DNA of 64,000 nucleotides from Alphaproteobacteria bacterium. Lineage in GTDB: Bacteria; Pseudomonadota; Alphaproteobacteria; JAQWUY01. Position numbers and translations under genes: made by a program. Positions 10,277 through 13,329 of this stretch are shown here, piece after piece; the stretch's first letter is position 1; every line of letters begins with the position of its first letter. The stretch spans positions 151,705 through 215,704 of the forward strand of contig JAQWUY010000031.1 in NCBI GenBank assembly GCA_029250225.1, read 5' to 3'. The notes under the pieces were generated by a model. That model made no database searches, was not told where the DNA came from, and saw only the letters and a program-made list of their open reading frames with translations.

Positions 10277-10837
10277 TTATTCAGACTTTTGAGTATCATC
10301 ACTAGATACTTCTTCTGTTTTTGTTTCTTCAACCGTTGTATCATCACCAGACACACTTGCTCCACCTGCTTCACTATAAGCATTAAGAACACGAGCAATC
10401 TGACCACCTGGCGCCTGTAATAACCCAACAATCTTGCCTCTTAGTTCGTCAAGACCAGGTAAAGCACCCCATTGTTTGATATCATCAGCACTTAACACTT
10501 TATCGCCCATACCACCAGCAACTAAAACTAATTTATCATTTGTTTTAGCAAAAGTATAAACAGCTTTTGAAGCAGCAATAGGATCTTGTGAATAAGCAAG
10601 CGCAGTAGTACCATTAAGACTATCTGCTAGGTGTTCAAAACGGGTACCAGCAATGGCAATTTTCACCAAGCGGTTTTTATACACTTTGAAACCAGCATCA
10701 AGCTCACGACACTTACTTCTAAGCTGAGTAGATTCAGCAACAGTTAAACCTGACTGCTTCACTACTACAACAGTTTCAGAAGACTCTAAAGTGTTTTTTA
10801 GTTCAGAAACAACTTGTTCTTTTTCTGTACGATTCAC
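10277..10837 (-). CDS. rplJ: 50S ribosomal protein L10
   Basis: 186 residues starting at GTG, read as Met and fitting the family start M-x-R-T-E-K; GGAAGGAA lies upstream. L10 anchors L7/L12 dimers at the stalk base and, with L7/L12, represses its own mRNA in studied bacteria. The core ends near residue 160. The last 25 residues form an acidic Thr/Ser/Glu tail that is longer than minimal. The leader upstream (10853-11036) carries L10-type structures and a candidate leader ORF. Confidence 0.96.
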
Positions 10838-10852
10838 TTTATTTTCCTTCCA

Positions 10853-10903
10853 TTAAAATTTGGGGTTAAACCCCGGGTTTAAAATCAAGAGCAAAAAAAC
10901 CAT
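10853..10903 (-). CDS. candidate 16-residue leader peptide upstream of rplJ
   Basis: ATG at 10903, preceded by AGGAG at 7 bases, opens a 16-codon frame reading M-V-F-L-L-L-I-L-N-P-G-F-N-P-K-F and ending in TAA 15 bases before the rplJ GTG. The AGGAG and ATG lie in a hairpin formed by A7 and T7 arms flanked by GAG/CTC. The frame's 3' half overlaps GGGG-TTTAA-CCCC, which competes with AAACCC/GGGTTT pairing. This resembles translation-coupled control. No homologue is known to me, and expression is unproven. Confidence 0.4.
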   Translation of the reverse strand: MVFLLLILNPGFNPKF

Positions 10904-10927
10904 TTTTTTACTCCTATTCCTGCCCGG

Positions 10928-11036
10928 GTAATATAAACTATATTAACCAAGTCTCATATAGGTTGAAATCTATTAAACCTCAGGCAAATAACCATCAGTA
11001 CCTATAATCTCGGACAGGTTGCTATCAAAAGATAGC
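10928..11036 (-). promoter_or_regulatory. L10-type ribosomal protein leader
   Basis: Between rplA and rplJ the minus strand holds CCGAGAT-TATAGGT (around 11006-11000) pairing through seven bases with ACCTATA (10963-10957), followed by TGAGACTTGG. The purine-rich GAGA sides of this helix resemble the kink-turn of the known L10 leader to which the L10-L7/L12 complex binds. Two small hairpins (11021-11036 and 11039-11052) follow the rplA stop codon and precede the leader. The assignment rests on position and manual pairing. Confidence 0.55.
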
Positions 11037-11754: not shown

Positions 11755-12186
11755 TTACAAACCTTCCACATCAATACCCATTGACCTTGCAGTACCAGCG
11801 ATAATTTTCACTGCTGCTTCTTCGTCATTTGAATTTAAATCAGCTTTTTTAGCTTCTGCAATTTCACGAAGTTGATCAACTTTAATTCTACCTATTTTTA
11901 CTTTATTAGGTTCCCCAGAACCTTTTTTAGCCTTAATGGCTTTTTTCAAGTAATAAGACGCAGGAGGAGTTTTTGTAACGAAATCAAAAGAACGATCTTC
12001 GTAAACCGTTATTACAACAGGAACAGGAGCTTTTGCTTCCACTTCTTGAGTTTTTGCATTAAACGCTTTACAAAATTCCATAATATTAAGACCTGCTTGT
12101 CCAAGAGCTGGACCAACTGGAGGCGAAGGATTCGCTGCACCCGCAGGAATTTGTAGCTTTACATAACCACTAATTTTTTTTGCCAT
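11755..12186 (-). CDS. rplK: 50S ribosomal protein L11
   Basis: 143 residues, full length. Landmarks are [20 protein letters not shown] with [13 protein letters not shown] at the N-terminus and the RNA-binding C-terminal domain ending in [11 protein letters not shown]. It forms the GTPase-associated centre with 23S rRNA. The first gene of the L11-L1 unit, it follows a strong promoter at 12275-12303. secE and nusG are absent from the usual position just upstream. Confidence 0.97.
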
Positions 12187-12274
12187 TTTCTACAATCCTT
12201 TTCTAAATAAATGTAGTGTGTGGTGTGACTCTATAGGACTTCAAGTTATCTTCCACACAATTAGTTAATTCGCT

Positions 12275-12303
12275 TCTATACCATAAGTAATAATAGTTGT
12301 CAA
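12275..12303 (-). promoter_or_regulatory. strong sigma70 promoter for rplK-rplA
   Basis: On the minus strand TTGACA (12303-12298), a 17-base spacer and TATAGA (12280-12275) with a TGG extended -10 element lie about 90 bases before rplK. The predicted leader holds a GTGTGG...CCACAC inverted repeat, which could fold into an L1-binding structure, but this was not tested. Confidence 0.75.
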
Positions 12304-12401
12304 ATATAAAAATATTATGAAAACTAACGAAGCAAGAAACAAGCCAAATTTACTATAAAATAAAAATGACTTGTTTTTCACATTAAACAATAAAATAAAT
12401 T

Positions 12402-12863
12402 CTATCGTTTTGAGAATTGGAAAGAACGACGAGCTTTCGCACGACCATATTTCTTTCTTTCAACTTTACGAGCATCTCTTGTCAAGAATCCACCACTCTT
12501 CAATACAGGGCGAAGAGCAGGTTCAAAATTAATCAAGGCACGAGAAATACCATGCTGAATAGCGCCGGCTTGACCAGAAAGACCTCCGCCTTTTACCGTA
12601 CAAACAACATCAAATTGCTTTGAACGATCAGCTCTGTCAAAAGGCTGACTAAGAACCATTCTTAAAACTGGGCGAGCAAAGTATTTTTCAATTTCGCTAC
12701 CATTAATTACAACTCTACCAGAACCAGGCTTAATCCAAACCCTTGCAACAGACTCTTTACGGCGACCGGTTGCATAAGCACGACCTTGTTCATCAATCTT
12801 TTGAACAGCTGGCTCAACTACTTTTACTTCTGCTAAATCAGCTAATGTTTGATTTTCTGACAT
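12402..12863 (-). CDS. rpsI: 30S ribosomal protein S9
   Basis: 153 residues. A non-conserved stretch of about 27 residues precedes the S9 core, which begins at [17 protein letters not shown] and ends in the basic tail [11 protein letters not shown] that reaches the P-site tRNA. It starts 1 base after rplM, the classic rplM-rpsI pair. Acidic N-terminal extensions occur in some alphaproteobacterial S9 proteins. Confidence 0.97.
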
Positions 12864-12864
12864 A

Positions 12865-13329
12865 TTAACCTCTCTTTACATTTTTAGGGTTTTGTTTTGC
12901 CAAGTCAAGAACAACTGGTTTTTGTGCTTCATATGGATGCTCAGAACCAACAACAACACGAACATTTCGCATTTGTTGACGACCCAATGGACCTGTTGGT
13001 ATCATTCTTTCAATAGCTTTTTTAACAACTCTATCAGGGTATTCACCATCAAGTAACTGACCAGCAGTACGAGATTTGATACCACCAGGGTGGCCAGTAT
13101 GCCAGTAATAAACTTTATCTTTCAATTTATTACCTGTTAGGTGTATTTTTTCAGCGTTAATAATTATAACATTGTCGCCACAGTCAACATGAGGTGTATA
13201 AGTAGGCTTGTGTTTACCGCGCAAAATTTTTGCAACTTCAACAGCTAAGCGCCCTAATACAAGGTCGGTAGCATCAACAATGTACCAAGTTTTTTTAACT
13301 TCACTTGGTTTAATAGAAAGTGTTTTCAT
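12865..13329 (-). CDS. rplM: 50S ribosomal protein L13
   Basis: 154 residues, full length, with [21 protein letters not shown] near the start split over residues 19-39 and the motif GHPGG at about 80. It is an early assembly protein of the large subunit. First gene of the rplM-rpsI operon, with a canonical promoter 57-85 bases upstream. Confidence 0.97.

Follow-up and report, generated by a model that had tools for sequence, protein, structure and literature searches.

What kind of RNA element lies between rplA and rplJ in this alphaproteobacterial genome, an AT-rich assembly of 1.2 Mb, and does translation of a short reading frame within it take part in its action? The window, by which we mean the whole 64,000-nt stretch of DNA analysed here, carries on its minus strand the gene order rplM-rpsI-rplK-rplA-rplJ-rplL-rpoB, with 223 nt between rplA and rplJ; the gene names follow from the translated products. 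A preliminary description of the spacer had proposed that a 16-codon frame ending just ahead of rplJ, its ribosome site held in a hairpin, forms a translation-dependent switch layered on an L10 leader. We consider it likely that the spacer holds an L10 leader of an alphaproteobacterial type, with the flagged segment, its downstream half, as the expression platform. This RNA element probably lets L10 limit its own production, and the 16-codon frame is probably incidental. The downstream end of the locus is fixed by two features:

10277..10837, minus strand: rplJ (L10), GTG start at 10837
10845..10849, minus strand: AAGGA, Shine-Dalgarno (SD) sequence of rplJ, 7 nt ahead of the GTG at 10837

The genes usually found ahead of rplK are secE-nusG. 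Their place is taken in the window by rplM-rpsI (12186-13329, minus strand), and the sole NusG match of the genome lies on the same contig, about 130 kb distant.

An L10 leader core upstream of rplJ

Alphaproteobacterial rplJ spacers share the pattern CCUGUCCGAGAC-UGCAGG-hairpin-UUAAU-CCUGCAUAGAC-...-GGGACAGG, whose counterpart in the window is CCUGUCCGAGAUUAUAGG...GGUUUAAU...CCUAUAUGAGAC...CCCGGGCAGG. A covariance model (R1), built from 35 alphaproteobacterial leaders with the window left out, finds its sole match, both in the window and in the source genome, at 11021-10918 on the minus strand (31.5 bits, E 5.2e-6). The match ends 80 nt ahead of the rplJ GTG, that is, directly upstream of the gene, and aligns the following parts of the window with those of the other leaders:

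10918..11021, minus strand: L10 (rplJ) leader core, where the L10-L12 complex is predicted to bind (R1)
11011..11018, minus strand: 5' strand of the closing stem P1, CCUGUCCG, pairing with 10926-10919 in the fold
11000..11006, minus strand: 5' strand of stem P2, UAUAGGU (fold, R1), adjoining the GAGA/UGAGAC kink-turn-like junction
10972..10977, minus strand: UUUAAU, the UAA of the L10 recognition site, aligned by R1 with CUUAAx of alphaproteobacterial leaders
10957..10963, minus strand: 3' strand of P2, ACCUAUA (fold, R1, covariation)
10919..10926, minus strand: 3' strand of P1, CGGGCAGG (fold, R1, covariation), whose homologue in relatives is (T)GGGACAGG

R1 matches 141 of 240 genomes of the class at E<=0.001, once per genome, and rplJ lies just downstream in all 39 of the matches that were examined with their downstream sequence. 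Thirty-five genomes matched in a 150-genome sample of the phylum, 22 of them from the same class, the source genome included. Among 56 aligned leaders, P1 and P2 together are paired in 94.6% of cells (36-46% after sliding), and 9 of 13 pairs have changed on both sides (P1 by itself: 97.2% paired, 4 of 7 pairs; the P2 columns covary as well), counts that lean towards the model because alignment A2 was fitted to R1 and that are inflated by the choice of P1 loci for R1 partly by motif.

The R1 match and the covarying stems thus bear out the L10 leader that had been proposed ahead of rplJ. Homology and covariation show a P1-closed domain that carries the L10-recognition hairpin, with the UAA and a kink-turn-like junction; from its GAGA/UGAGAC sequence we infer that the junction is a kink-turn. 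The preliminary description had treated the upstream CCCGGG as a switch partner only and had missed its primary role, since most of it belongs to the 3' strand of the conserved P1 stem. In some relatives (L003, L005, L044) the rplA-rplJ spacer is only 11-34 nt long and is without an L10 leader.

Genomes and leaders compared

The closest rplJ relatives of the source genome are alphaproteobacterial and belong to other orders, the window's own order being represented here by its own genome alone. A search of genome contigs for rplJ relatives gave 80 loci, the best of them 51% identical in rplJ and from other groups, and no locus of this type was found among viral contigs. At the DNA level, a search of 385 genomes of the class returned, the source genome aside, short matches only.

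Alignment A1 comprises 35 of 63 listed cores, mostly of 140 nt or less. Near-duplicates (L184, L175, L190, L206) were dropped ahead of the counts, as was L207, in which the rplJ start was not placed; L209, a filler region, was left out. Spacers shorter than 150 nt or without the P1 3' strand (L003, L005, L023, L024, L044, L053, L061, L076, L084) and segments below 50 nt (e.g. L181, L188, L193) were also dropped. L008, L020 and L027, in which P1 is not reliably placed, were part of a pairing test on 75 leaders and were taken out of the later tests; L075, a near-copy of L074, is not among the 103 leaders used there.

Relation to known L10 systems

The L10_leader model of Rfam (RF00557, gathering threshold 44 bits) finds nothing in the window, not even with E allowed to rise to 10, and nothing in the source genome, and it reaches its threshold in 0 of 19 relatives. 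Across 14 control genomes it matches B. subtilis, Synechococcus, Thermotoga and Lactococcus, and not E. coli or Caulobacter. In one alphaproteobacterial leader (L038) there is a sub-threshold match (19.1 bits, E 0.2) at AGAC.GCAGG..CUUAAU..CCUGC, a recognition element that is common to RF00557 and this leader, and the model places its CUUAAU at the position matching the UUUAAU of the window. Since the window, the genome and the 19 relatives are all without a threshold match, the alphaproteobacterial type seems to lie outside Rfam as modelled, from which it differs by its own long-range P1, CCUGUCC/GGACAGG. The L10-leader groups given in the accessible part of a 2024 review do not name the Alphaproteobacteria.

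The nearest mechanistic model is the rplJL leader of B. subtilis, in which L10(L12)4 acts by transcription attenuation with a leader peptide and three exclusive structures, experimentally established in the order anti-antiterminator, antiterminator, terminator; a kink-turn and the UAA are critical for L10 binding, and the hydrophobic leader peptide brings a Rho-dependent gain in expression of about 2-fold (PMC4538822). The window resembles it in the order of parts (an L10 site, two further stems that each exclude their neighbour, then the rplJ SD), which in the window is predicted by folding, and in having a short hydrophobic leader ORF ahead of rplJ. The window differs in coming from another phylum, with another P1 sequence. 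Its terminator-like hairpin is weak, the SD of its ORF is held in a hairpin of its own, and the ORF begins between the L10 site and the terminator-like hairpin, whereas the Bacillus ORF follows the terminator. In E. coli rplJL, compared here by published description, L10-L12 likewise targets a structured leader at a long distance ahead of the rplJ start, in translational autorepression. The assembly yields no LSU rRNA match, and hence no 23S L10 site to set beside the leader, though its listed completeness is 100.

We place the element among the known L10 leaders, as a type that RF00557 does not capture and whose platform is predicted, though not proven, to be attenuator-like; it is a form of a familiar switch that has been catalogued little so far. 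L10 leaders are widespread, and R1, by matching 141 of 240 alphaproteobacterial genomes, makes this type directly testable as to whether it acts on transcription or on translation.

The predicted expression platform

The flagged segment lies between P1 and rplJ, and folding predicts that it serves as the expression platform of the leader. Its parts overlap:

10911..10915, minus strand: AGGAG, SD-like sequence of the leader ORF, unpaired probability 0.02-0.05 in all modelled states
10886..10916, minus strand: platform hairpin UAGGAGUAAAAAAA-UGG-UUUUUUUGCUCUUG, 14 bp (folding)
10872..10928, minus strand: antiterminator-like helix between the two CCCGGG copies (10928-10923 and 10877-10872), with the platform hairpin inside it (folding)
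10862..10874, minus strand: terminator-like hairpin GGGGU-UUA-ACCCC followed by AAAUUUU (simple terminator scan and folding)
10853..10903, minus strand: leader ORF MVFLLLILNPGFNPKF, 16 codons, stop included in the span, in the same phase as rplJ

Only 5 of 200 shuffles of a 126-nt piece fold as well as the original, and only 1 of 200 for the 244-nt leader. The two CCCGGG copies, 51 nt apart, are the only ones in 64 kb (1.4 expected); the upstream copy can indeed pair with that at 10872-10877, as had been claimed, and its position is 10923-10928 and not 10922-10927. The helix that they form is -24.3 kcal/mol alone and excludes both P1 and the terminator-like hairpin. Mutually exclusive stems, another part of the earlier proposal, are thus predicted, with GGGGU/ACCCC (10874-10870 with 10866-10862) at -6.2 kcal/mol; the AAACC/GGUUU stem put forward as its competitor is weak (-1.4 kcal/mol, probability about 0.04 within the leader).

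In folding of the growing transcript, P1 would be the first to form (0.99). As 10877-10871 emerges, the P1 3' strand is predicted to re-pair with it in the antiterminator-like helix (0.99 for a transcript ending at 10871), and when CCCC 10865-10862 emerges, GGGGU/ACCCC would capture the shared G's and P1 would re-form (P1 0.91, terminator-like hairpin 0.87). By analogy with what is established for L10, L10-L12 complex in surplus would bind and stabilise the P1 domain, and rplJL expression would fall: with L10 bound, P1 would be held and the terminator-like hairpin favoured, and with L10 absent the antiterminator would permit read-through. The A7/T7 hairpin would be a structural piece of the platform.

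This attenuator-like switch is predicted, not proven, in the window, and 4-19% of shuffles do as well. The three serial exclusive structures with the L10 site first have a counterpart in 12 of 150 shuffled downstream segments, in which P1 dips and recovers in the same way, and pairing of the P1 3' strand with downstream sequence has p 0.037 with a 14-nt probe and p 0.19 with a 24-nt probe. The terminator-like hairpin passes a simple scan with 5 pairs and the AAAUUUU tail; having only 5 pairs and a tail that starts with AAA, it would be a poor intrinsic terminator.

What the class shares is a structured platform: across 103 leaders the P1-to-rplJ stretch has a mean z of -2.54, with z below -2 in 74 of them, and terminator-like sites occur in 15 (4.0 expected). 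Antiterminator pairing as a class-wide feature was rejected, as downstream pairing of the P1 3' strand was significant at p<0.05 for 10 of 75 leaders when probed with 14 nt and for 6 of 103 when probed with 24 nt (4 of 103 for a control segment). In 29 low-GC relatives, moreover, P1 melted no more than it did in shuffles. Among leaders of deltaproteobacterial type (L087-L108), p<0.05 was obtained in 3 of the 15 in which the P1 motif was found.

Control of transcription or of translation

Control of the kind known from E. coli, in which bound L10 would make the ribosome site of rplJ more or less accessible and the exclusive stems would be side effects of a structural, GC-rich stretch within an AT-rich genome, is a possibility that we hold with some doubt. 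It would account for the weakness of the terminator-like hairpin and for the small share of leaders (15/103) with such sites, and L10 control in E. coli is translational. The exposure of the rplJ SD speaks against it: class-wide this SD is 0.50 unpaired against 0.45 in shuffles, and so not specially hidden, and in the window it is left open when P1 and the terminator-like hairpin are formed (0.84-0.88 unpaired, against 0.49-0.59 in the antiterminator state), which is the wrong sign for translational repression.

We think it unlikely that the leader is switched by translation of the 16-codon ORF, whereby a ribosome would melt the antiterminator and terminator-like stems, block Rho or couple to rplJ 15 nt downstream, and so raise rplJL expression. 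The letters are as the preliminary description gave them: AGGAG precedes an ATG (10903-10901) that opens a 16-codon frame ending in TAA (10855-10853), 15 nt from the rplJ GTG. The frame spans both exclusive stems and stops just ahead of the rplJ SD. Nor do we call the AGGAG-ATG trivially random, because of 20,000 dinucleotide shuffles of the 81-nt segment only 35 contain the strict form (AGGAG-N3-9-ATG); any SD of at least 4 bases with ATG arises in 228 of 5,000. Among relatives, in contrast, the start is at chance level, an SD with ATG at this position being found in 9 of 103 leaders, the window included (shuffles 6.3, sd 2.0), and the strict form in 1 of 105 other segments; the claim for the ORF matters less for this lack of conservation at class level.

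The proposed hairpin around the ribosome site also stands, and it too speaks against translation. A7 (10909-10903) pairs with T7 (10899-10893) in a stem whose full length is 14 bp (10916-10903 with 10899-10886), so that the AGGAG and the first base of the ATG lie within it. The stem folds at -10.7 kcal/mol, a value that none of 500 shuffles reached for this 31-nt piece, which was chosen by eye. In every modelled state the SD has a pairing probability of 0.95-0.98, so that none of these states exposes the start and only a brief co-transcriptional chance would be left. A translatable ORF that is both conserved and accessible was thus not found among the class-level leaders and modelled states. 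By eye, several relatives (e.g. L199, L195, L185) have a hairpin in the corresponding position whose sequence is unrelated, and for this reason we interpret the A7/U7 hairpin as a structural element of the platform. The AGGAG-ATG that falls within its 5' arm is in all likelihood incidental, or else seldom used.

We keep a low probability for a leader peptide because B. subtilis shows that such a peptide can matter, by a Rho-dependent route (PMC4538822), and Rho is encoded in the source genome; the Bacillus peptide nevertheless sits after the terminator and not between the L10 site and the terminator. The specific form of an alphaproteobacterial L10 attenuator with a 16-codon peptide, whose start in the A7/U7 hairpin would become accessible only while transcription is slow or paused and whose ribosome would override antiterminator and terminator, strikes us as improbable; rplJL output would then follow both translation and the level of free L10. 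That the palindromes arose by chance in an unrelated spacer without regulatory role is very improbable, for although the switch statistics alone are weak, the unique R1 match, its class-wide occurrence beside rplJ, the covariation of P1 and P2 and the strongly structured downstream segment all disfavour it.

Other observations

A sub-threshold match to the Rfam family Termite-leu at window 10808-10896, on the plus strand and so opposite to the leader, was rejected (28.3 bits against a cut-off of 51), the GGGGTTAAACCCC palindrome accounting for it. In single leaders the region of the P1 3' strand can instead pair strongly with downstream sequence, and these are kept as leads: L014, together with L200 (about 15 bp), L182, L196, L198, L072, L074 and L075, the last seven being candidates for clear L10 attenuators or switches.
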